Of a stretch of 64,000 nt of DNA, positions 176-63,617 are shown in pieces; the stretch's first letter is position 1; every line of letters begins with the position of its first letter. The translations under genes were made by a program, and so were the position numbers. The notes beneath the pieces were generated by a model that worked only from the letters and a program-made list of their open reading frames with translations, ran no database searches and had not been told where the DNA came from. Location: assembly GCF_029392855.1 (NCBI RefSeq), contig NZ_CP113945.1, forward strand, positions 1 through 64,000. The letters are read 5' to 3'. This DNA comes from Lactobacillus sp. ESL0680 (GTDB lineage: Bacteria; Bacillota; Bacilli; Lactobacillales; Lactobacillaceae).

Positions 176-1306
176 ATGAAATTTACAATTAACAGAAATC
201 TTTTTGTCGATAATCTAAATAATGTCATGCATGCTATTTCCTCACGAGCAACAATTCCCATCTTAAGTGGTATTAAGCTTAACTTAACGGATGAGGAATT
301 AGTCTTGACGGGAAGCGATACTGATATTTCAATTGAACTAAGAATTCCGGTTAGTGAAGATTTAACTGTAGAATCAACTGGTTCAATTGTTTTACCAGCC
401 CGTTTCTTTAGTGAAATCATCCGTCGTTTACCAGGAAAAGAATTTTCTTTAGAAGTAAAAGAAAGTTTTCAAACACAAATTATCTCAGAAAACAGTGAAT
501 TTACCATTAACGGCTTAGATGCAAATAACTATCCAAGATTACCGGAAATTTCTGACGAGTCCGCTTTTGTTATTTCAGGGAAAACTTTCAGAGAAATTAT
601 TACAGAAACACAATTTGCCGTTGCCACTCAAGAAAGTCGGCTCGTTTTAACTGGGGTACACTTTACCTTTAGTCCTGACCAAATTCATGCCGTTGCCACT
701 GATTCACACCGGTTGTCCAGTCGCGCATTGACCTTAGAAAATGGTCCACAAACTGAAACTGATCTAATTATTCCTGGAAAAAGCTTACTCGAACTTGCGC
801 GCATCATTGGTGAAACCAATCCAAAAGTGCGAGTTTGTCCTGGAGATAGTCAAGTTTTGTTCGAAATTGGTGATATTCTATTTTATTCTCGGCTACTTGA
901 AGGCAGCTATCCCGACACTGAACGCCTGATCCCAACCGAAAATACAACTAGTGTTGAATTCGACCTGACAGAATTGTCCAGTGCGCTTGATCGGGCCAGC
1001 CTTTTGACGCATGCTGGCAGAAATAATGTTGTTGACTTAACACTTGATGTTGAAAATCAGACAGCCAAATTGTCGGGCGAGTCCGCTGAAATTGGTAACG
1101 TTGAAGAAGATGTCAGTTTTAAAAATTTAACTGGCAAGAATTTGAAAATTTCGTTTAATCCTGACTACTTACGCGACGCCTTAAAAGCTTCCGTAACAGA
1201 TTCAGTTGTCATGGAATTTACACAACCGCTGCGGCCATTCACAGTTAATCCCGATCAAACTGACATTGACTTCGTTCAACTAATAACGCCAGTTAGAACT
1301 TTTTAA
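176..1306 (+). CDS. dnaN: DNA polymerase III subunit beta (sliding clamp)
   Basis: This is the ring-shaped processivity clamp that tethers DNA polymerase III and other proteins to DNA. At 376 residues it has the normal family length and three similar clamp domains of about 125 residues each. It ends in the typical conserved tail LITPVRTF. The ATG follows AGGAG (164-168) at good spacing. It sits downstream of the presumed dnaA and upstream of yaaA-recF, the standard Firmicute origin order, and is closed by a hairpin terminator. A TATACT -10 at 85-90 could give it a promoter of its own. No irregularity was seen. Confidence 0.97.
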   Translation: MKFTINRNLFVDNLNNVMHAISSRATIPILSGIKLNLTDEELVLTGSDTDISIELRIPVSEDLTVESTGSIVLPARFFSEIIRRLPGKEFSLEVKESFQTQIISENSEFTINGLDANNYPRLPEISDESAFVISGKTFREIITETQFAVATQESRLVLTGVHFTFSPDQIHAVATDSHRLSSRALTLENGPQTETDLIIPGKSLLELARIIGETNPKVRVCPGDSQVLFEIGDILFYSRLLEGSYPDTERLIPTENTTSVEFDLTELSSALDRASLLTHAGRNNVVDLTLDVENQTAKLSGESAEIGNVEEDVSFKNLTGKNLKISFNPDYLRDALKASVTDSVVMEFTQPLRPFTVNPDQTDIDFVQLITPVRTF

Positions 1307-1326
1307 TGTAAAACAGAATTATGAGT

Positions 1327-1355
1327 TAAAGGTCATCAATCTGATGGCCTTTTTT
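1327..1355 (+). terminator. rho-independent terminator of dnaN
   Basis: GGTCATCA at 1331-1338 pairs with TGATGGCC (one G-T pair), followed by a run of T. It separates dnaN from the yaaA-recF-gyrB-gyrA group. The remaining bases to 1522 hold no gene and presumably contain the next promoter. Confidence 0.8.
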
Positions 1356-1522
1356 GTTTCCGCTTTTTGTTAATGGACAAAATAAGCGCGTTATTTAGTT
1401 TTAAAAGCCATTTACCATAAAATGTTTATTTTGTAAAAGACCGTTTATACGGCGTTATATTAGCTTTTTAAGTTGTCTTTTAGCCTTAAAACGAATATAC
1501 TTAAATATAGGAAACTAGTGCG

Positions 1523-1744
1523 ATGAAGGTGAGTATTATCAAGGAATTTACAGTAAAAGGTGAGTACATTACCTTAAGTCAATTTTTAAAAGAAGAAAGC
1601 ATTATTTCTTCTGGTGGTCAGGCAAAATGGTATTTGCAAGATAATCCAGTTTTGTTAAATGGGGTCAAAGAAGACCGGCGCGGTAAAAAGCTGCGTTCAG
1701 GCGATCGAATTGAAATTGCTCATGAAGTGTATCTTTTTCGGTAA
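1523..1744 (+). CDS. yaaA: S4-domain RNA-binding protein YaaA
   Basis: A 73-residue protein that is essentially one S4 RNA-binding fold, with the typical core GGQAKWYLQDNPVLLNG and the basic EDRRGKKLRSGDRIEI segment. The family is found between dnaN and recF in most Firmicutes and is thought to bind RNA, possibly ribosomal; its exact role is not settled. It ends 6 bases before recF, so it is co-transcribed with recF and the gyrase genes. The start ATG follows AGGAAAC. Length and position are normal for the family. Confidence 0.93.
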   Translation: MKVSIIKEFTVKGEYITLSQFLKEESIISSGGQAKWYLQDNPVLLNGVKEDRRGKKLRSGDRIEIAHEVYLFR

Positions 1745-1750
1745 TCTTCA

Positions 1751-2887
1751 ATGTATTTGAAGCATTTTGTGGCACAAAATTACCGTAATCTGCAGCAATT
1801 AGACGTTGAATTTGATCCTAACGTCAACATTTTTATTGGGCAAAATGCGCAGGGGAAAACCAATCTGCTGGAAGCAATCTATTTTTTGGCTTTAACACGT
1901 TCACATCGAACCAGTAGAGACAAGGAATTGATTGCTTTTAATCAAGAATACGCCAATATATCTGGTCATATTTATAAAAGTCAGCTTGATTTATCTTTGC
2001 GTGTTTTAATCACTAAAAAGGGCAAAAAAGTCTGGGTTAATCGTGTTGAGCAAGCAAAATTGTCGAAATATGTCGGACAATTAAATGCAATTTTGTTTTC
2101 ACCTGAGGATTTGGACTTAATTAAGGGTGCGCCGGCTTTAAGACGGCGGTTTATGGATCAAGAATTTGGTCAAATTAATCCGGAATACTTGTATTTTGCC
2201 AGCAAGTATCGGCAAGTTTTACAGCAGAAGAATAATTACTTGAAACAACTATCTAAGGGCCAAGCCCATGACCAGTTATTTCTTGATGTATTAGCCGATC
2301 AATTGGCTGGAATTGCGGCTGAAGTCATTGTGCGGCGGTTTAAGTTTCTTAATTATTTGCGGACATATGCACGTGATGCATATGCGCACATCAGTACTGG
2401 TGGTGAGGAATTGACACTAATCTATCGGCCGTCAGTTCCAGAAATTACCGCTGATGACAGTACAGAAGTGATTTACCAAAAGTTGCTGGCAAACTTTAAG
2501 AAAAATAAGGCTGCAGAAATGCGCAAAGGGACAACCTTATCTGGTCCGCATCGTGATGATATTGAGTTTGCCTTAGATGGCAAAGATGCTCATCTTTATG
2601 GCTCACAGGGCCAGCAACGCACCATTGCACTGAGTGTTAAGCTGGCAGAAATTCAGTTAGTGCATCAATTGACCGCTGAATATCCCGTGTTACTACTTGA
2701 TGATGTAATGAGTGAACTTGACCATGGCCGCCAGAGTGCACTACTTAATTATATTCATGGCAAAACGCAAACATTTATTACAACAACAGATTTGACAGGT
2801 ATTTCCTGGGAAATAATTAAAAAGCCTCAGGTTTATCGGATTAAATCTGGAAAAATTTATTTGGAAAAAGGAGAATTGAATGGCTGA
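1751..2887 (+). CDS. recF: DNA replication and repair protein RecF
   Basis: An SMC-like ATPase that helps RecOR load RecA at single-strand gaps next to duplex DNA. At 378 residues it shows the Walker A motif GQNAQGKTN (residues 30-38), the ABC-type signature region YGSQGQQRT in the C-terminal third, and the Walker B motif [12 protein letters not shown] near the end. Its 3' end overlaps the gyrB start by 8 bases, which suggests translational coupling. It lies in the yaaA-recF-gyrB-gyrA operon, and nothing in it is unusual. Confidence 0.97.
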
Positions 2888-4844
2888 TCATAATGAAGAA
2901 GAGCTTGATCAAATCAAGCAATATGAAAAAGAAGCTGATAAGTATAATGCCAGTCAAATTCAGGTTTTGGGTGGCCTTGAAGCTGTCCGTAAACGACCGG
3001 GAATGTATATTGGTTCGACTAGCTCTCAAGGTCTGCACCATCTAGTTTGGGAAGTAATTGATAACAGTATCGATGAAAGCTTAGCTGGGTTTGCGACCAA
3101 AATTGAAATTACGGTTAATGCCGATGGCAGTGTAACTATTCAAGATGATGGTCGGGGTATTCCGGTTGATATTCAAAAGAAAACTGGTCGGCCAGCTCTA
3201 GAAACTGTATTTACTGTTTTGCACGCCGGCGGTAAATTCGGCGGTGGCGGCTATAAAGTTTCTGGTGGACTTCATGGTGTTGGTGCATCAGTAGTTAACG
3301 CTTTGTCAACTGAGCTTGATGTTACGACGATGCGTGACGGCAAGAAGTACTACATTGACTTCAATCGTGGTCGAGTTAAGACAGAAATGAAAATGACCGG
3401 TACAGTGCCATTGAATGAACACGGAACGATCGTTCACTTCTACCCAGATCCAGATATTTTTACTGAAACTACTACCTTTGATGATAAAGTTTTGAAAAAC
3501 CGGATTCGAGAATTAGCTTTCTTAAATAAGGGGTTGAAGCTAACCTTTACTGATAAGCGAAAAGAATCAGCTGAGACTGATGTTTATCATTATGAAGGTG
3601 GAATTAAGGAATACGTTGCCTTTTTGAATCACGGTACAGAAGTTTTGTTTGATGAGCCGATTTATGTTGAAGGGGACTACAACGAAATTAATGTTGAAGT
3701 ATCTTTGCAATATACAAATGGCTATAAGACAACCTTAATGACCTTTGCTAATAACATTCACACTTATGAAGGTGGGATGCATGAATCCGGCTTTAAGACT
3801 GCTTTAACACGGGTTGTTAATGACTATGCCCACAAGGCTAAGATCTTGAAGGATAAGGATGATAACCTTTCTGGTGAAGATATTCGTGAAGGAATGACGG
3901 CTGTTGTTTCGGTTAAGCACCCGAATCCGCAATTTGAAGGTCAGACTAAGACCAAGTTGGGCAATTCTGATGCCAGAACAGCAGTAGATAGGGCATTTTC
4001 GGAAACTTTTACCAATTTTTTGATGGAAAATCCGCAAGTTGGACGTAAAATCGTTGAAAAAGCGCAGTTAGCTGAACGGGCTCGGACTGCTGCAAAACGT
4101 GCGCGTGAAGTTACTCGGAAAAAGTCGGGGCTTGAGATTGCTAACTTGCCAGGTAAACTTGCCGACAATACCAGTAATGACCCAAGTATTTCGGAATTAT
4201 TTATCGTTGAAGGTAACTCTGCCGGCGGTTCAGCTAAGCAAGGCCGGTCACGTTTAACGCAGGCAATTTTGCCAATTCGTGGGAAAATTTTGAACGTTGA
4301 AAAAGCTTCGATGGACAGAATTTTGGCTAATCAAGAAATCCGGTCATTGTTCACGGCGTTAGGTACCGGTTTTGGTGCTGATTTCGATGTTTCTAAGGCG
4401 CGTTACCATAAATTAATTATTATGACGGATGCCGATGTCGACGGCGCCCATATTCGGACACTTTTGCTTACGCTCTTTTACAATTACATGCGGCCAATGA
4501 TTGAAAAGGGATATGTGTACATTGCACGTCCGCCTCTATATCAGGTTCGTCAAGGTAAAGTTGTTAAGTACCTTGATACCGATGAGGAATTACATGATTA
4601 TTTGGGTGCTTTGCAGCCTAGCCCTAAACCGCTTGTTCAGCGCTACAAGGGATTAGGTGAAATGGATCCTGAACAATTGTGGGAAACAACAATGAATCCA
4701 GAAAACCGCCGACTTGATCGTGTTAGTCCGGAATATGCCAAGGATGCCGATGAGGTCTTTGAATTATTGATGGGTAATGAAGTTGCGCCGCGGCGGAAAT
4801 TCATTGAAACTAATGCTAAATACGTTGAAAATTTGGATGCTTAG
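2880..4844 (+). CDS. gyrB: DNA gyrase subunit B
   Basis: The ATPase subunit of the type IIA topoisomerase that introduces negative supercoils. At 654 residues it has the GHKL ATPase motifs [18 protein letters not shown] and [14 protein letters not shown] in the N-terminal half. The TOPRIM residues follow in [13 protein letters not shown] and DADVDGAHI, and the tail carries the usual conserved RYKGLGEM. The start overlaps recF and is preceded by AAAGGAGAA. It pairs with gyrA, which starts 10 bases downstream. Length and motifs are normal, and the lack of a ParE partner here favours GyrB. Confidence 0.97.
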
Positions 4845-4854
4845 GAGGTTTTAA

Positions 4855-7341
4855 ATGGATAACGACAATCAAGGTCAAGATCACAGAATTAGAAATGTCG
4901 ATCTAACTAGCGTAATGAATAGTTCATTTTTGGACTATGCGATGTCAGTTATTGTTGCGCGGGCTTTACCTGATGTGCGTGATGGTTTAAAGCCGGTCCA
5001 AAGACGAATTCTTTACGGGATGAGTGAATTAGGGGTTACTCCTGATAAGCCGTATAAAAAGTCTGCCAGAATTGTTGGGGAAGTTATGGGTAAATTCCAC
5101 CCCCACGGTGATTCGTCAATTTATTTGGCAATGGCACACATGGCGCAAGACTTTAGCTATCGCTATATGCTCGTTGACGGCCACGGTAACTTTGGGTCTG
5201 TCGATGGTGATGAGCCAGCCGCAATGCGTTATACCGAGGCGCGGATGAGTAAAATTGCCGTTGAAATGCTGCGGGATATTAATAAAAATACGGTTGACTG
5301 GCAGCGTAACTACGATGATTCTGAAAATGAACCGGTAGTTTTACCAGCACGAATTCCTAACCTGCTCGTTAACGGCACAAGCGGAATTGCTGTCGGGATG
5401 ACAACCAATATTCCGCCGCATAACTTGTCTGAAGTTATCAGTGGTTTGCATATGTTAATGAGCAATCCGGATGTCACAACTAAAGACTTGATGAAGGCAA
5501 TTCCTGGTCCTGATTTTCCAACTGGCGGAATTATTATGGGGCGCGGCGGTATTTATCGGGCATACGAAAGTGGTCGCGGCAATATCGTTGTGCGGGCTAA
5601 GACCAACATTGAGACCGAGAAAAATGGTCGTGAACGCATTGTTGTCACTGAATTACCATATTTGGTTAACAAGGCTGAATTAGTTAAGAAAATCGCTGAT
5701 TTAGCGCGGTCCAAAACGATTGACGGCATTACCGGCGTTCGTGATGAATCTGACCAGACTGGGATGCGGATGACGATTGATATTCGCCGTGATTCAAGTG
5801 CCAGTGTAGTTTTGAATAACTTATTCAAATTGACGCAAATGCAGGCTAATTTTGGGATGAACATGGTTGCCATTGTTGATGGTGCACCACATTTTCTAAG
5901 CATTAAGCAGATGCTGTCGTACTACTTGGAACACCAAGAAGACGTTGTTACACGTAGAACAAAATTTGAGTTAGCCAAGGCTGAAGCAAGGGCCCACATT
6001 CTGGAAGGTTTGAAGATTGCTTTGGATCATATTGACGAAATTGTTAAAATTATTCGTCAAAGTAATTCAAGCGATATTGCTAAGGCTGCTTTAATCAGCC
6101 GCTTTGGGCTGGATGATAAGCAATCACAGGCTATTTTGGATATGCGGCTTGTCCGGTTGACAGGTTTGGAACGTGACAAGGTTGAAGCTGAATATAAGGA
6201 TTTGCAAGAAAAAATTGCCGATTATAAAGATATTTTAGCAAAACCTGAACGGATCAACGAAATTATTTATAACGAGTTGCTCGATATTCAAAAGCGGTTT
6301 GGCGATAAGCGCCGGACTGAGATTGGTGCCAGTGAAGTTGTTTCAATTGAAGATGAAGATTTAATTGAGAAGCAAGATACTTTATTGACCTTAACTCATA
6401 GTGGTTACATCAAACGGATGCTGATTAGCGAATTTAAGACGCAAAACCGTGGTGGTAAAGGCATTAAGGGGATGGGCGTGAAGTCAGGCGATTTCATTGA
6501 GAAGTTGATCTACTCAAGTACGCATGACTTACTATTGTTCTTTACCAATAAGGGCAAAATTTATTCCAAGAAGGCTTATGAAATTCCTGAATTTAGCCGG
6601 ACTGCTCGCGGGTTACCAATTGTTAACCTCTTGCAGCTAGAAAAAGGCGAGAAGATTCAGACAATTATCAATATTCCTGAAAATGCCGATGACCAATACC
6701 TATTCTTTATCACGAAGATGGGAACTGTTAAGAGAACGCTCGTTAGTGAATTTGCCAATATTAGAAACAGCGGCTTAATCGCATTAACTTTGCGCGATGG
6801 CGATGAATTAATCAATGTCTTAACCACTGACGGCAGTAAAGATATTCTGATTGGTACTCATCTGGGCTATGCTGTTCGCTTCAATGAGCAGACTGTTCGG
6901 GCAATGGGTCGAACTGCTGCCGGTGTTCGTGGGATTAACCTGCGCGATGGCGATTATGTCGTTGGTTCAGGCGTGATTGGCAATCGTGATGAAGTTCTAG
7001 TAATTTCTGAAAAAGGTTACGGCAAGCGGACTTCAGCTACTGAATATCCGGTTAAGGGCCGTGGCGGTAAAGGAATTAAAACCGCTAATATTACGGAGAA
7101 GAACGGACCACTATCTGGTGTGACTGTAGTTGATGGTACCCAAGACATTATGGTCATTACCAATGATGGAATCATGATTCGCTTCAAGATTACGGATGTT
7201 TCCCAAACCAGCCGGAGCACGATGGGTGTTCGCTTGATTAAAGTGGGCGAGCACAATAAGGTTGCTAGTTTAACAGTTGTTCCTGCTGAGGAAGATCAAG
7301 AAGTAGCTGTTGAATCTGAGACTGAAGAAGAACAAAACTAA
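4855..7341 (+). CDS. gyrA: DNA gyrase subunit A
   Basis: The DNA-cleaving and rejoining subunit of gyrase, 828 residues. The catalytic tyrosine is Tyr126 in AAMRYTEAR. The C-terminal half holds the beta-pinwheel that wraps DNA, including the GyrA-box-like stretch RGGKGIKG near residue 520 and an acidic tail. The quinolone-binding segment reads [12 protein letters not shown]: Ser87 matches E. coli Ser83, but the acidic residue at E. coli position 87 (Asp, Glu in Bacillus) is Leu91 here. The start has a strong TTAGGAGG site. It is the last gene of the yaaA-recF-gyrB-gyrA operon. Confidence 0.97.
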
Positions 7342-57277: not shown

Positions 57278-57468
57278 GACTATTCTTCCACATATCAAAT
57301 CAATATTAAATTAAAATTATTTCTGCATCTATTATAGCCTTTTAGTTTATTAAATGATGATTTAAACAGCTATAAATTTTATGATATTTTTATTTAAATA
57401 TTGTGATGTTGGTGCTTTTTAAGCTTATAATTAAATTCATCAGGTTAAATAACATTGAGGTACGAAAA

Positions 57469-58131
57469 ATGAAAGTAACAACTTTTAAGAAAAATAGGTT
57501 AATCTTACTAATTACGGCAATAACCTTGTTGGGCTTTGGCAGTATGGCGGTAAATACTACCAGTGTTAATGCTGACAGTGCGAATTCTAATACCACTGAC
57601 TTTTCTGGCTTGTGGAGCGGACAAGATGGGCAATGTGATTGGTCTTACGATATTGTAACTAGGACTTTAACAATTAGTTCAAGCAGTCGCGGGTCACAGT
57701 TAAGTACTAAAGTTTTGAGTGGGCAGATAAGTGGTCTTATTCCTTGGAGTGGTTGGATTGAACACATAAATTTTGCTACACCAGTTAGCTTGGCAATTAA
57801 TTCTGGGGGTAAATTTAGTTATCTGTATAATTTAAAAACGATTGATAATTTTAACCTTGTTGATACTAGTAGAGTTGTCAATATGGCCGAATTGTTTAGT
57901 GATGATGAAAACCTGTATAAGTTGGATTTAAGTAACCTTAATACCAGCAAGGCAGCCAACATGACTAATATGTTTAATAGTGATAAAAAGCTAACGCAAG
58001 TTGATCTGAGTAAGCTTGATACTAGTCACGTGCCATCTGCTAAGAAAAAAGGAATGTTTGATAATTCGGGCTTAGTTCCGAATACAGATAGTGTCCAGCA
58101 CAGTAAAAGTGCTCATGCCGGTAAAAAATAA
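57469..58131 (+). CDS. secreted BspA-like leucine-rich-repeat protein
   Basis: A 220-residue exported protein: signal peptide 1-36 (LILLITAITLLGFGSMAV, cleavage near VNADS), then a BspA/DUF285 region FSGLWSGQDGQCDWSYDI and LRR units NMAELFSDDENLYKLDLSNLNTS and NMTNMFNSDKKLTQVDLSKLDTS. It ends soon after the second repeat with no SLAP, LPxTG or mucin-binding domain, so it is short for the family, which usually has several hundred more residues. ATG at 57469 with GAGG ahead. Confidence 0.82.
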   Translation: MKVTTFKKNRLILLITAITLLGFGSMAVNTTSVNADSANSNTTDFSGLWSGQDGQCDWSYDIVTRTLTISSSSRGSQLSTKVLSGQISGLIPWSGWIEHINFATPVSLAINSGGKFSYLYNLKTIDNFNLVDTSRVVNMAELFSDDENLYKLDLSNLNTSKAANMTNMFNSDKKLTQVDLSKLDTSHVPSAKKKGMFDNSGLVPNTDSVQHSKSAHAGKK

Positions 58132-58141
58132 AAAGGAAAAT

Positions 58142-58177
58142 AATAAGCTGCCCCTCATACTGGGACAGCTTATTAAA
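58142..58177 (+). terminator. terminator after the BspA-like gene
   Basis: AATAAGCTGCCCC/GGGACAGCTTATT, a hairpin with one bulge, 10 bases after the stop. Confidence 0.75.
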
Positions 58178-58186
58178 TTTCAACTT

Positions 58187-58230
58187 AGGACTAGCTTTTG
58201 ATATTTTGTCGGGAGACTAGTCTTTTTTAT
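58187..58230. terminator. second hairpin, related to 61426-61463
   Basis: GGACTAG pairs with CTAGTCT, followed by TTTTTAT. The loop TTTTGATATTTTGTCGGGAGA resembles the loop at 61436-61450 (TCTGATATTTTATCAGGG), so this may be a repeated terminator cassette of the accessory region. Confidence 0.5.
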
Positions 58231-58251
58231 TTTGCTTATTTCGTAATTGTT

Positions 58252-59394
58252 TTAACTGATACTTTGATATTTATTGCCAACATCTAATTTTGGTAGTTTT
58301 ATCATTTTACTGGTTTTTTTACCACGTTCGTGTTGAGTTAATCTCAAATCGTCATAATTATTGTTTTCATTAGTATCTAAAGTGATATTGTCTTCAGGAA
58401 TATCACTTATTGTTGAAAATATGGGTTTATTGTGTTCCCAAATTTTAATGATATTTCCAGGTTTAGTTAGAATATTTAATTCAATAGAATTTTTATTTCT
58501 TTTAGCATTAAGTATAGTTGGTTTATCGGTAGCATATTTTGATGCTGAGATTGTTTTAATTAAATGCTTACCACTATAAATTGTAAAGTCTTTATATCCT
58601 TTGAATGGTAAAACTATTTTGAATTTAGCGCCGTTTTTCTTCACTTTATAATTTTTAACAGTCTGCTTATTGTATTTGATATTTAAATTAGAAATATCAT
58701 AAGTATTCCCACTAATAGCTAATTTATGAGTTTTTCCAGAATAATTCATATGAAAATGAGTGATTCTTGGATTTAATTTAATAGGTAAATCAATAGATAC
58801 AATATTATTATTACTAATTGAATCTCCTAGATTTGCTATAGATTTAGAATATGCTTTTTTCATTCCTCGGATATCAGGCTTTTCAATAGAATAAATCCTA
58901 TTAGCTGGATTCATTACAGATTTACTATTTTTTAAATTATGTTTTAAACCTAATGCATGACCTAATTCATGTTCGGCCACATTAATTTTTTGTTGAGTTG
59001 TGTAGTTATATTTTTTTAGTGAAGTTTTGTTGAGTTCGACTTTGTTGCTGACAATTAAGTGATTACTTGTATTATATTGCATATGGTCTACACCAGCCAG
59101 ACCTATTAAGGTTTTATCTTGTTTTTGAGTGAGTGCCAATAAGTGTGTTTTTGATGAGCTAGCTTTTGTCCATTTAAAACCAGCTTTTGTCCAAGCGTTT
59201 GTTGCTTTTTTCCATATAGACTTGTAGTACTTAGATTGCTTGTTTATTACATAGGTTGAATGTTGTTCGGGAAATCTCCAACCATAAGGTGTTATTGCTT
59301 TCGTTTTAGCTGATACATTACTTGGGACAGCGCCTAAAAATACAAGTAAAGTTAATGATAAAATAGTGTAAAATTTCATTCTTTTGTTTTTCAT
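58252..59394 (-). CDS. secreted matrixin-like zinc metalloprotease
   Basis: A 380-residue exported protein. Signal peptide 1-29 (cleavage at VSA/KT). The zinc motif is HELGHALGLKH, with His142, Glu143, His146 and His152, and Met161 in SVMNP forms the Met-turn of metzincins. The catalytic domain is short (about 35-180). The rest is beta-rich with KxYxxKKNGAKFKIVLP-like segments suggesting one or two Ig/S-layer-type domains. ATG follows TTAGGAGG. Substrate unknown; no wall anchor seen. Confidence 0.87.
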   Translation of the reverse strand: MKNKRMKFYTILSLTLLVFLGAVPSNVSAKTKAITPYGWRFPEQHSTYVINKQSKYYKSIWKKATNAWTKAGFKWTKASSSKTHLLALTQKQDKTLIGLAGVDHMQYNTSNHLIVSNKVELNKTSLKKYNYTTQQKINVAEHELGHALGLKHNLKNSKSVMNPANRIYSIEKPDIRGMKKAYSKSIANLGDSISNNNIVSIDLPIKLNPRITHFHMNYSGKTHKLAISGNTYDISNLNIKYNKQTVKNYKVKKNGAKFKIVLPFKGYKDFTIYSGKHLIKTISASKYATDKPTILNAKRNKNSIELNILTKPGNIIKIWEHNKPIFSTISDIPEDNITLDTNENNNYDDLRLTQHERGKKTSKMIKLPKLDVGNKYQSIS

Positions 59395-59608: not shown

Positions 59609-60040
59609 TTATTTTTTTGCATAATGTATTAGTAACAAAATAACTGGTAGAATTTGGCAGATAGACCAATATGCTAAATTGACATAAGCAATAATTATAA
59701 TTGTAGGATACTTTAATACTGTATAGTACAAAATTACCAGACCTATACCAACTACAAGAGATAATATTTCTATAAATTTTAAAGTCTTTTGTTTTGCTAT
59801 GGCTATGCTTTCATTGCCTTCAATATCTTCGTTAGTTTCTTTTTTTACCTGTCTTGTAGACGGTGCATGATTATGAGTATTGTTTAAAGATGATGCCATA
59901 AAAAAGAAAATAATTGCTATAATTATATCTACTATTGAACTAAAAGTATTTGTTTTCCATTGATATATAGCAAGAAATAATAAAGCAATAGTTATTATTA
60001 AATCTAATAAGTTTATGGCATGTTTTCTTGTTTTTTTCAT
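59609..60040 (-). CDS. four-helix membrane protein, unknown
   Basis: A 143-residue protein not recognised by family. It has a basic N-terminus KKTRKHAIN, two membrane helices (about 10-50), a polar acidic loop (NNTHNHAPSTRQVKKETNEDIEGNES), two more helices (about 88-138) and a short HYAKK tail. The ATG follows AGAGGAG. The topology mirrors the 135-residue protein encoded divergently at 60439, though sequence identity is slight. AT-rich like its surroundings. It might be an immunity or accessory protein, by context only. Confidence 0.65.
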   Translation of the reverse strand: MKKTRKHAINLLDLIITIALLFLAIYQWKTNTFSSIVDIIIAIIFFFMASSLNNTHNHAPSTRQVKKETNEDIEGNESIAIAKQKTLKFIEILSLVVGIGLVILYYTVLKYPTIIIIAYVNLAYWSICQILPVILLLIHYAKK

Positions 60041-60370
60041 AGATTCTCCTCTTTATGAAATATAATTTTACATCAAGGTTGAAAAATAGGAAATCTATTC
60101 CACAGATTTAGTGTTTAATGTAGTGATAAGCGCTTCTAGCAAGGGACTAAAAATTAATGTTTATATTTACCTAACTGTGTCTCTAGGGATATGCTTTTTT
60201 ATTAAAAAATAAAAAAGCAATTAGTTGAGTAGACCCAATCAGTTTATATAGTGTACTTTAAGATTGTAGTTTTATCTCTTATTTATAGAACGATAATTTG
60301 TTCTATTATTATATTTATAATATTACATAATATCAGTGTTTGTATAGTTTAATTTATAATAATAAAAGCC
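60041..60370. other. AT-rich gene-free divergent region
   Basis: About 330 bases between divergent membrane-protein genes. No gene was found. It contains A/T runs and one weak hairpin (TTAGTTGAGTAGACCCAATCAG). The composition is clearly more AT-rich than the housekeeping part of the window, which suggests acquired DNA. Confidence 0.5.
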
Positions 60371-60399
60371 TTGCATATATAACATATGTTATATATAAT
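60371..60399 (+). promoter_or_regulatory. promoter with palindromic operator in the spacer
   Basis: TTGCAT (60371-60376), exactly 17 bases, TATAAT (60394-60399). The spacer is filled by the perfect palindrome ATATAACATATGTTATAT (60377-60394), extending to 22 bases at 60375-60396. A dimeric repressor sitting there would block RNA polymerase. The gene starts at 60439 with AAAAGGAA ahead. Confidence 0.7.
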
Positions 60400-60438
60400 A
60401 TTATTAGTGTTATATATTTATATAAAAAGGAATAGTAA

Positions 60439-60846
60439 ATGAAAAAGAAAAGTAAGTATAGATTAAAAATGTTTTGTCTTTTATTTATCGCAATAGCATT
60501 AGTTGTTGCAATACTATTAGTGGAAAGACACGATATCTGGGCAATGATTAGAGATTTAGTATCTCTTGCTGTAGTATTATTTATTTTTTATATCTCATTT
60601 TCAGTAGAAAAAGATTCTAAAGATTCAGATGATAGTGTAAAAAATAAGCATAATTATAGTGCTGTTATATTTATAGTGCTATTTGCTGTAGCGTTAATTT
60701 CTATAGCGTTATATTCGTTTTATAAAAAGTCAATTATATTTCTGGGTATATTTACAATATCAGGTATTCTTATTGGTTTGTCAGTTTTTGTGGATTTTGT
60801 GGATATTCTAGTTAGTTTGTTTAATTTTTTTAAAAATAAAAAATAA
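60439..60846 (+). CDS. four-helix membrane protein, unknown
   Basis: A 135-residue protein of no recognised family. N-terminus KKKSKYRLK, membrane helices at about 10-28 and 35-55, a polar loop EKDSKDSDDSVKNKHN, helices at about 72-95 and 98-128, and the tail FFKNKK. It is first in a two-gene unit with the secreted cationic protein 38 bases downstream, under a promoter with a palindromic operator. A membrane immunity role for that partner is possible, but only from context. Confidence 0.65.
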   Translation: MKKKSKYRLKMFCLLFIAIALVVAILLVERHDIWAMIRDLVSLAVVLFIFYISFSVEKDSKDSDDSVKNKHNYSAVIFIVLFAVALISIALYSFYKKSIIFLGIFTISGILIGLSVFVDFVDILVSLFNFFKNKK

Positions 60847-60884
60847 ACTTTTTAAATATACTTACAGAGTAAGGGTAGAGATAC

Positions 60885-61364
60885 ATGAAAAGTAAATTAC
60901 AACGTTTGTTAATTGTGTTATGCAGTATAGTAATGCTTATTCAACCAATAACGTATATTACTAGTAACACAGTAATTGCTACTACAACGCAAAAGGAAAA
61001 AATAAGTACTGCAAAGAAAGATTTAAAATTACAGGTTAAACTTAGCGATAAAGATTTAAAGCTAATTTCTAATAAGAATATTTTAGCTTTAGATAAACAA
61101 ATTAATGAAGTTAGACCACGTGGTTTTGTTAGTGATGTAAAATTATGCGTAAAAGCGGTTAGAGTTGCATATAAGTTATTACCTAAAAAAGTACAAAAGA
61201 AGATTTTGAAATATGGCATTACGAAGACTGCAAAACTTATAGTTAAAGTAGTTGATAAGTATAGTGGGTATTCAAGTAAACTTGTACATACAATTTGCAA
61301 AAAAATACATATACCAAGAAAATATGCAAATATATTAGCGAAAGTAGTTAATTTTTTTCTTTAA
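60885..61364 (+). CDS. secreted cationic protein, bacteriocin-like, unknown
   Basis: A 159-residue exported protein with signal peptide 1-32 (LLIVLCSIVMLIQPITYI, cleavage near VIA/TT). The mature part starts polar and Lys-rich (STAKKDLKLQVKLSDKDLK). The C-terminal half from about 85 is strongly cationic and amphipathic: VAYKLLPKKVQKKILKYG, TKTAKLIVKVVDKYSG, HIPRKYANILAKVV. Two cysteines remain after cleavage, Cys88 and Cys138, able to form one disulfide. No family recognised. Composition resembles pore-forming or membrane-active bacteriocins. It follows the 4-TM gene. Confidence 0.65.
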   Translation: MKSKLQRLLIVLCSIVMLIQPITYITSNTVIATTTQKEKISTAKKDLKLQVKLSDKDLKLISNKNILALDKQINEVRPRGFVSDVKLCVKAVRVAYKLLPKKVQKKILKYGITKTAKLIVKVVDKYSGYSSKLVHTICKKIHIPRKYANILAKVVNFFL

Positions 61365-61425
61365 CTGAATAACAAATTTGAGTTAAAAATTTCCGAGTTA
61401 AGAAATGTCATGAATCCAAAAAATA

Positions 61426-61463
61426 GAACTAATTTCTGATATTTTATCAGGGCTAGTCTTTTA
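61426..61463 (+). terminator. possible terminator after the cationic protein gene
   Basis: GAACTA/GGCTAGTC with TCTGATATTTTATCAG inside can fold (CTGATA/TATCAG is a perfect inner stem), followed by TTTT. Similar in sequence to 58187-58230. Confidence 0.5.
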
Positions 61464-61501
61464 GAATTTCAGATTCCTTGAAGATATTTATTAAGAGAAG
61501 T

Positions 61502-61534
61502 AAAAAAAGCGATCCCATAGGAATCGCTTTTTTC
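61502..61534. terminator. bidirectional terminator
   Basis: AAAAAAAGCGATCC/GGAATCGCTTTTTT around CATA, serving the minus gene that ends at 61548. Confidence 0.85.
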
Positions 61535-62177: not shown

Positions 62178-63617
62178 TTAACTCCAATCTTCGAAGTAAA
62201 GTGAATTAAGTTGTTCTTTTGTTGTTTTAACAAGCCAAGTAACCTCTTTAACTTCACCGCGGCTAACAGAAGATGATCTTAGAGTAACTGCGGCAATTGC
62301 TAAAGCATTTTCGTAATTATTTTTAAGTCCTGCATCAATTGCTATGGCGCTCAAAGTATTTTGACCATCCATAAATACCTGCTCTAATTCCTTTTTGTCG
62401 CTGGAACTTGCTTCTACTTGATCGGATTTGGCACTTTCCGGCGTGTTTAACGGCTGAAGAGTAATGTAGTTGTTATCAAATTTGATTGCGTCGGCTTTAA
62501 CAAAACTGTTGTTAAAAGTTAGACGGTCAGGATCAGACGCGGAAATTATGTCATGATTTTTTCGGAATAAGTGATAGTACAACTCAGCTTTTTGGGTTTT
62601 ATTATCCCAAATATAGAATAAGCCATCAGCACTGATTGTTTCATCTTTTAGCGGGGTTAATGTAGATAATTCCTTACCCATAGATGAATAAAGCTGGATT
62701 GGCTTATCAGAAATAGAGGTAAAAGTGCGATAGGCCATGTCGTCATAATCAGCAATTGGCAAATCATTCCTAATCTTGAGCAAGCTTTCATCAAGATATT
62801 CATTAGGACAATCATGTAAATGGTAGATGTAACCGTCAAAGTCTTCTGCCCAAGGGCTAACGCACCGATCGATTGTTACTTTTTGACCCTTTTTAAGCTT
62901 ACGACTAGTGTTGCGATTAGAGATGTATTGCGTATGGGTATTCTTAGTAACTATTGCGGTTGTAATGCCGTTATAACGAGCAATTTGGCCATTGATTTTA
63001 CCAACATTCTTAGCATTTAGATAGCGGTTGTTTCCCAGCGCATAATAATCTTGGCCCTTAATTTTATGAGTTGGCAGGTAACTTTGTTTTTTAGAATTTT
63101 GATAGTAAAAGTACTTGGGAATTGTAGTAGTGGTTTTTATTTTACCAGCATACTTAACCAAAGTATTTTTGGCTAAAGTTTTTCCTACCTTTTTTCCGTT
63201 TTTGTTGTAAATATTAGACGCGTGGTTGAGCAGCAACTTGCCTTTTTGCAGCTGCTTACCATTAACTGCCATAACATACTTTGCCTTAATGTAAGCATTG
63301 TGGGCAATTTGGTAGTATTTTGTTCCGTGAATAAAAGCGGTTCGTCCCGTGTATGCAATATCAGTAGTGTCATAGTCACAATCTAGGTAAGCGTAGCCTT
63401 GATTGTCGGTATTAATAATACGTATTCCTGGTATGTTGTTATAGTAGCGATAACGCTTGCCGTTGGCCTTGTAGATAAACGGATCATCGATAACTGTGAT
63501 GGTATTTTTCTTGGTTTTACTAATAGCTTGGACATTCTGTGGCTCAAGCATTGATAAGATAGGACTGCTGAGTAGTACAGCAGCTAGAATAATAGTTATT
63601 TTTTTACTTAGTTTCAT
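62178..63617 (-). CDS. SLAP-domain secreted cell-surface protein
   Basis: A 479-residue exported protein. Signal peptide 1-31 (ITIILAAVLLSSPILSM, cleavage near VQA). Residues 35-260 contain SLAP (Lactobacillus S-layer) type units such as NHASNIYNKNGKKVGKTLAKNTLVKYAG and YYALGNNRYLNAKNVGKINGQ, which bind wall polysaccharide. The C-terminal part (about 270-479) is a distinct region ending KTTKEQLNSLYFEDWS, with no recognised fold. The start lies 3 bases after the stop of the upstream SLAP gene, so the two are coupled. Confidence 0.85.
   Translation of the reverse strand: MKLSKKITIILAAVLLSSPILSMLEPQNVQAISKTKKNTITVIDDPFIYKANGKRYRYYNNIPGIRIINTDNQGYAYLDCDYDTTDIAYTGRTAFIHGTKYYQIAHNAYIKAKYVMAVNGKQLQKGKLLLNHASNIYNKNGKKVGKTLAKNTLVKYAGKIKTTTTIPKYFYYQNSKKQSYLPTHKIKGQDYYALGNNRYLNAKNVGKINGQIARYNGITTAIVTKNTHTQYISNRNTSRKLKKGQKVTIDRCVSPWAEDFDGYIYHLHDCPNEYLDESLLKIRNDLPIADYDDMAYRTFTSISDKPIQLYSSMGKELSTLTPLKDETISADGLFYIWDNKTQKAELYYHLFRKNHDIISASDPDRLTFNNSFVKADAIKFDNNYITLQPLNTPESAKSDQVEASSSDKKELEQVFMDGQNTLSAIAIDAGLKNNYENALAIAAVTLRSSSVSRGEVKEVTWLVKTTKEQLNSLYFEDWS

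Follow-up and report, generated by a model that had tools for sequence, protein, structure and literature searches.

Within the window, by which we mean the whole stretch of 64,000 nucleotides that was analysed, a short plus-strand unit lies between two minus-strand genes. It consists of a promoter-like element, two genes which we call A and B, and a terminator-like hairpin, and the preliminary description of this DNA had placed it correctly at 60371..61364. Judged by eye, the ATG of each gene is preceded by a plausible ribosome-binding site. The features are collected in Table 1, where L003 is the locus of two related genomes (G039 and G067) that carries homologues of both genes, and L017 is a contig described below.

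Table 1. Features of the A-B unit and of the adjacent genes, with window positions
Feature	Position	Strand	Basis
Promoter-like element, TTGCAT-17 bp-TATAAT	60371-60399	+	Sequence; 25 of 29 bases also present in front of the homologous L003 operon
Perfect 22-bp AT-rich palindrome, ATATATAACATATGTTATATAT, overlapping the promoter spacer	60375-60396	no strand	Sequence scan
Gene A, coding for a 135-aa protein with 4 TM segments, the proposed immunity partner of B	60439-60846	+	39% identical to its L003 homologue (G039/G067)
Gene B, coding for a basic, secreted protein of 159 aa, proposed to be a pre-pro-bacteriocin	60885-61364	+	Sequence, family profiles, alignment
B, predicted signal peptide, about aa 1-32	60885-60980	+	Hydrophobic N-terminus; end set by eye; model helix 2-18, with 18-32 at low confidence
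B, pro-part, aa 33-79, three predicted helices, conserved Arg at its end	60981-61121	+	Model and alignment
B, putative mature domain, aa 80-159, cationic, with five helices in the model	61122-61361	+	Model and alignment
B, codons of Cys88 and Cys138	61146-61148; 61296-61298	+	Sequence of B
Terminator-like hairpin closing the unit, T runs on both strands	61502-61534	no strand	Scan (minus strand); plus-strand T run by eye
Immunity-like gene without a toxin, divergent from A-B, coding for a 143-aa multi-TM protein	59609-60040	-	64% identical to the toxin-adjacent gene of L017
Secreted matrixin-like metalloprotease (HELGHALGLKH), candidate maturation protease	58252-59394	-	Pfam M10/M12 models above cut-off

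The promoter had been described as consensus-spaced, and this is right for the 17-bp spacing and for the -10, which is perfect, but the -35 agrees with TTGACA at just 3 of 6 positions and therefore the element is missed by a consensus scan. The palindrome reported to fill the spacer is indeed perfect over 22 bp; the window has just one other palindrome of at least 16 bp, and that one is shorter. Palindromes of at least 22 bp had a mean of 0.017 per simulated 64 kb in 60 first-order Markov simulations, and 0.7% of 3000 simulated 388-bp stretches of the local composition (20% GC) contained one of at least 20 bp. The promoter stretch is also one of five DNA matches between the A-B locus and L003 (31 nt, 87%). 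Nevertheless, the proposed control by a palindrome-binding regulator is not supported. The 1.71-Mb single-contig genome has no further copy with up to one mismatch and a single site with two mismatches, and we therefore rejected a regulon; in the closest relative's promoter, that of L003, the palindrome is imperfect (9 of 11 pairs, which 5.7% of composition shuffles match). No LytTR, histidine kinase or Rgg regulator was seen among the ORFs listed around A-B; three LytTR genes lie elsewhere in the genome.

As previously noted for this locus, the sequence encodes a protein with four hydrophobic segments (A) and an exported basic protein with two cysteines past its predicted signal (B). The further remark that neither protein matches a familiar family was borne out in Pfam and NCBIfam, where A and B have no family match above cut-off. 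Below threshold, Pfam relates A to AgrB (16.7 bits, cut-off 23) and to SdpI/YfhL (PF13630; 12.7 bits, E 0.15). The SdpC/SdpI system of Bacillus subtilis pairs an exported pro-toxin with a small multi-TM immunity protein, but A scores too low against PF13630 (cut-off 28.2) to be placed in the SdpI family. B gave two partial PADLOC matches to the BREX protein PglZ, the better of which aligns residues 16-87 with an 855-position model (26.6 bits, E 4.6e-7). These matches cover the signal and the pro-part, and we took them as chance; no match to the whole PglZ phosphatase was obtained, and the NCBIfam match of B to PglZ reaches 13.9 bits against a cut-off of 270.35.

The N-terminus of B is hydrophobic and signal-like and contains Cys13, so that Cys88 and Cys138 are the cysteines past the signal region. 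Residues 80-159 hold 19 K+R and 2 D+E (net +17), and the pro-part is basic as well (+6), opposite to most members of the family described below. A structure model of moderate confidence (pLDDT 73, pTM 0.41) predicts a signal helix, three helices at 33-76, a low-confidence linker at 78-82 and five helices from there to the end. Four of these five helices (101-109, 112-125, 131-140 and 145-158) are more amphipathic than shuffles (p 0.005-0.047, uncorrected). For helix 83-98 the difference is not clear (p 0.066), and the helices of the pro-part do not exceed shuffles. The model of a relative, P0010 (pLDDT 77, pTM 0.65), also has five C-terminal helices (104-172), predicted with high confidence; its pro-part is unlike that of B and has short strands. 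Fold searches matched no toxin fold.

A single-sequence search with B returned B as its sole match. We then searched 150 related genomes with B and 29 matched at E <=1. Matches at E <1e-3 were found in six of them, namely its own genome, G039, G067, G047, G025 and G066, and later profiles confirmed two weaker ones, in G069 (E 0.003) and G117 (E 0.011). The homologue in G039 and G067 is 51% identical to B, and both cysteine positions have counterparts in it, downstream of an internal stop. A profile of six proteins retrieved 38 proteins and a second profile of 19 retrieved 39, the two sets overlapping, and the family amounts to 64 protein ids with B included. The named hosts include Lactobacillus, Weissella, Listeria, Bacillus cereus, Staphylococcus, Streptococcus and Lactococcus, with Enterococcus added by plasmid records. 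The member names shown are 'hypothetical', 'uncharacterised' or 'secreted' protein, and none states a function. Our literature searches by the motif DHFTG, by accessions and by plasmid and EntV-like names found nothing on the family, in a coverage which mostly excludes subscription papers.

One member, P0011, matches 17 plasmid records (Staphylococcus 12, Enterococcus 3, Latilactobacillus 1, Lactococcus 1). At four loci (L049, L050, L051 and L052) the members sit on staphylococcal or enterococcal plasmids of 4.3-147 kb, some of them mobilizable, and a 2-3 TM ORF adjoins; that of L050 is absent from the PLSDB gene table, which is itself known to be incomplete. Regarding regulators, we observed above Pfam cut-offs a LytTR regulator with a histidine kinase at L020, a LytTR regulator at L029 and an Rgg C-terminal domain at L019. 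The closest NCBIfam names at L020 and L029 are AgrC/AgrA, below cut-off; Fsr, considered below, is an Agr-type system. Rgg-like regulators, whose likeness was judged by eye and for which no domain match was obtained, also lie near immunity-like genes at L106 and L103.

The layout of the family was read from alignment A10, which has 59 rows (55 proteins and 4 locus translations) and omits 9 of the 64 ids (P0036, P0038, P0051, P0052, P0059 and P0061-P0064). Members consist of a signal peptide, a variable pro-part, an Arg-Gly site and a C-terminal domain. The column before the C-terminal part holds Arg in 48 of the 59 rows; the C-terminal part itself is net positive in 57 of 59 and measures 74-75 aa in 53 of 59, against 80 aa in B. 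Upstream of the junction, from residue 31 onward, the net charge is zero or negative in 50 of 59. Regarding the cysteines of the C-terminal part, 16 members have none, 39 have one and 4 have two or more. The two-Cys pattern is thus a trait of a subgroup and not of the whole family.

The small membrane protein beside the secreted one recurs in the family. In G039 and G067 the homologue of A lies directly upstream of that of B; a search with A reached no other genome below E 8e-4. The B homologues of G047, G025, G066 and G117 also adjoin a small multi-TM gene. We counted small ORFs with at least two hydrophobic segments within 100 nt, taking family ORFs of at least 130 aa, counting identical C-termini once and skipping controls close to family genes or to locus ends. 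Of 42 distinct family ORFs, 34 have such a partner. In the same loci 12 of 107 control ORFs do, as hydrophobic ORFs also appear by chance in AT-rich DNA; among strong members (E <1e-20) the count is 26 of 30. The 42 ORFs are not independent, because several are near relatives (for instance L060/L061 and L064/L065/L067), and one of the 34, the weak member L080 with an opposite-strand ORF 98 nt away, may be chance. The preliminary description had named B-like genes without a partner as the case that would speak against its reading. They do occur, in 8 of the 42 ORFs (strong L048, L067, L029 and L031; weak L040, L077, L078 and L079); two of the four strong ones, L029 and L031, have a 2-TM ORF 193 nt away. 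For B, L017, G047 and Weissella the partner precedes the family gene on the same strand, and in most of the other cases it follows it.

Several of these partners are homologous to each other. In leave-one-out profiles, eight immunity-like proteins of Lactobacillaceae reach 34-43 bits, which no more than 1 of 5500 shuffles equals. These are the products of the window's 59609-60040 gene (43.0 bits, 0 of 5500 shuffles as good), of L017, L019, L023, L027, L029 and L033, and A's homologue at L003. A itself scores 18.5 bits against the other immunity-like proteins, a value equalled by 1 of 500 shuffles of A and by 271 of the full 5500, and its link to this family therefore runs through the L003 homologue. 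The neighbours at L020 and L047 fail the test and stand outside that immunity family. Among 75 Lactobacillus genomes the immunity-like profile matches 17 (8 at E <1e-20) and the toxin profile 10.

The most probable reading, which we hold with considerable confidence, is that A-B encodes a bacteriocin together with its immunity protein and belongs to a family that has no curated name. The likeness to bacteriocin-immunity units had been guessed from the sequence of this locus; at the level of the family the guess is well supported, as far as sequence comparison goes, by the partner counts, the homologous immunity-like proteins, the plasmid carriage and the LytTR and Rgg regulators at some loci. 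The conserved junction and C-terminal part, the immunity-like genes with no detected toxin or just a toxin fragment nearby and the loss of both A and B in G055 (see below) also favour it. Points against it are the low score of A itself, the neighbours at L020 and L047, the family ORFs that have no membrane partner and their partial dependence on each other, the basic pro-part of B, the moderate confidence of its model and the lack of a toxin-fold match. A different explanation, which we think unlikely, is that B is a secreted surface or signalling protein and not a toxin, with the adjacent membrane proteins as its anchors, chaperones or sensors. The sub-threshold AgrB and SdpI matches of A would suit it, as would the surface-protein genes nearby: the plus-strand gene at 57403-58131 encodes a DUF285/PARCEL-repeat secreted protein, and the minus-strand gene at 62178-63617 a surface protein that has an SlpA domain and, terminally, a FIVAR match below threshold. 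However, the partners are membrane proteins of more than one type, on either side and either strand of the family gene, immunity-like genes exist without a toxin, and relatives are plasmid-borne in other genera, all of which speaks against it.

Regarding the genes on the other side of the promoter, the same set is found on L017, a 6.4-kb plasmid-like contig with a Mob_Pre relaxase (positions 781-6249 noted). Its gene order is immunity, open toxin gene, protease, and the two flanking genes are 64% and 84% identical to their homologues in the window. This order suggests that the window holds a complete A-B pair and, reversed, a second cassette that apparently lacks its toxin. A search for a toxin relic between the 59609-60040 gene and the protease gave, among the five best protein matches, a lowest E of 0.055 for the upstream piece and of 0.12 for the gap piece; at the DNA level the strongest match was an AT-rich stretch of 31 nt (E 0.002). 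As none of these is a clear relic, we infer the toxin loss from L017. We propose that the 59609-60040 gene confers immunity to a second toxin of the L017 type, or is what remains of such a function.

The metzincin at 58252-59394 might, by analogy with GelE and EntV (see below), be the maturation enzyme for B. We consider this role possible but rate it low, because protease homologues are common (81 of the 150 genomes at E <=1e-10, many of them partial) and because, of 15 toxin-bearing loci checked (3.8-16 kb), the protease is present in L017 and L018 only. A 178-bp stretch of the protease gene is 71-72% identical to hypothetical genes of 13 Apilactobacillus kunkeei plasmids.

Related loci contain several cases of loss. 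G055, the closest relative examined, is 89-92% identical on both sides and lacks 59799-61531, and so lacks A and B; of the 59609-60040 gene just the 3' part is left, and it contains stops. A single deletion that removed A, B and part of that gene fits best. The G055 region also has nothing that matches 57360-58242. In G069 the toxin copy (L023, 7471-7962) has several stops and stands beside an open immunity-like gene, and in G071 a 25-residue toxin-like fragment (L106, 2093-2167; 60%, E 1.3e-5) is found in the same situation. G068 and G029, the latter an 87% complete genome, have a strong immunity-like gene and no toxin match below E 0.04 in 3.4-kb stretches. One could suppose from the broken copies in G039/G067, G069, G071 and G055, and from the toxin-less immunity-like gene next door, that the unit itself is a decaying remnant, with real genes and a real promoter whose active product is no longer made. 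This appears improbable to us, given that the frames of A and B are both open, their start signals plausible and the promoter conserved, and that a terminator-like hairpin follows.

Among known systems, the size and the two-part helical plan of B are most like those of EntV (enterocin O16, enterococcin V583; EF1097 of Enterococcus faecalis). EntV is described as a 170-aa pre-pro-protein with a signal peptide, a three-helix first half, a flexible linker with the GelE site and a helical, active C-terminal half (PMC9562342). GelE cuts it to the 68-aa active half, which needs the disulfide C106-C167, and its expression is Fsr-regulated (PMC9562342 and PMC6606811 for cleavage and disulfide, PMC6606811 for Fsr). 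Dysgalacticin and streptococcin A-M57, class III bacteriocins of streptococci, are plasmid-encoded and alike in secondary structure, and dysgalacticin has a Sec-type leader and a membrane-associated immunity factor, DysI, encoded next door (PMC8308785); we liken them to B by description only, and dysgalacticin is longer, at 220 aa. The layout of the EntV/SA-M57 type, that is, signal, helical pro-part and helical C-terminal part, is found in the model of B at 33-76, 78-82 and 83-158.

One may ask whether the B family consists of distant, unrecognised members of the EntV, streptococcin A-M57, corynicin JK and dysgalacticin group that have diverged past sequence recognition. Besides the shared plan, the LytTR regulators at L020 and L029, whose best match is AgrA below cut-off, would recall the Fsr regulation of EntV, and the immunity factor next to the dysgalacticin gene would recall A. 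On the other hand, the cysteine plans differ: C106 and C167 of the 170 residues of EntV join the ends of the mature domain, whereas C88 and C138 of B are not so placed, the second being 21 residues from the end, and 55 of the 59 members have one Cys or none. Furthermore, the EntV structure 7ROA was not among the matches of the family profiles to PDB sequences (at E 1 and E 10) nor among those of the fold searches, although the copies searched possibly lack 7ROA. We regard such a common descent as a tentative alternative of rather low probability; the plan of B resembles that of EntV, and the likeness observed here is one of layout.

Under the bacteriocin-immunity reading, B would be synthesised as a pre-pro-protein, and the Sec pathway would cleave its signal peptide near residue 32. 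A secreted protease would then cut at the conserved Arg-Gly (R79/G80) and free the 80-residue, +17, five-helix domain, which would harm the envelope of related bacteria. Within the subgroup of B, Cys88 and Cys138 may pair as a disulfide. A, translated first from the same unit, would remain in the membrane of the producer and block the toxin, as adjacency and homology suggest.

At the level of the family, we find it about evenly balanced whether the following broader proposal is right: that this is a new family of Sec-exported two-part bacteriocins of Bacilli, not related in sequence to EntV and with an immunity family of its own in Lactobacillaceae, that some Lactobacillus loci carry an immunity-toxin-metzincin cassette, and that toxin turnover leaves toxin-less immunity genes behind. 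Bacteriocin research has mostly dealt with small peptides that have dedicated exporters, and Sec-exported pro-proteins freed by an outside protease are easily overlooked, given that the single-sequence search with B returned B alone. If B kills as we propose, dozens of proteins whose names give no function, from Lactobacillus, Listeria, Staphylococcus, Enterococcus, Streptococcus, Lactococcus and Bacillus, would become testable bacteriocins, most of them with an adjoining immunity candidate. Thus, A-B may open an overlooked group of bacteriocins.
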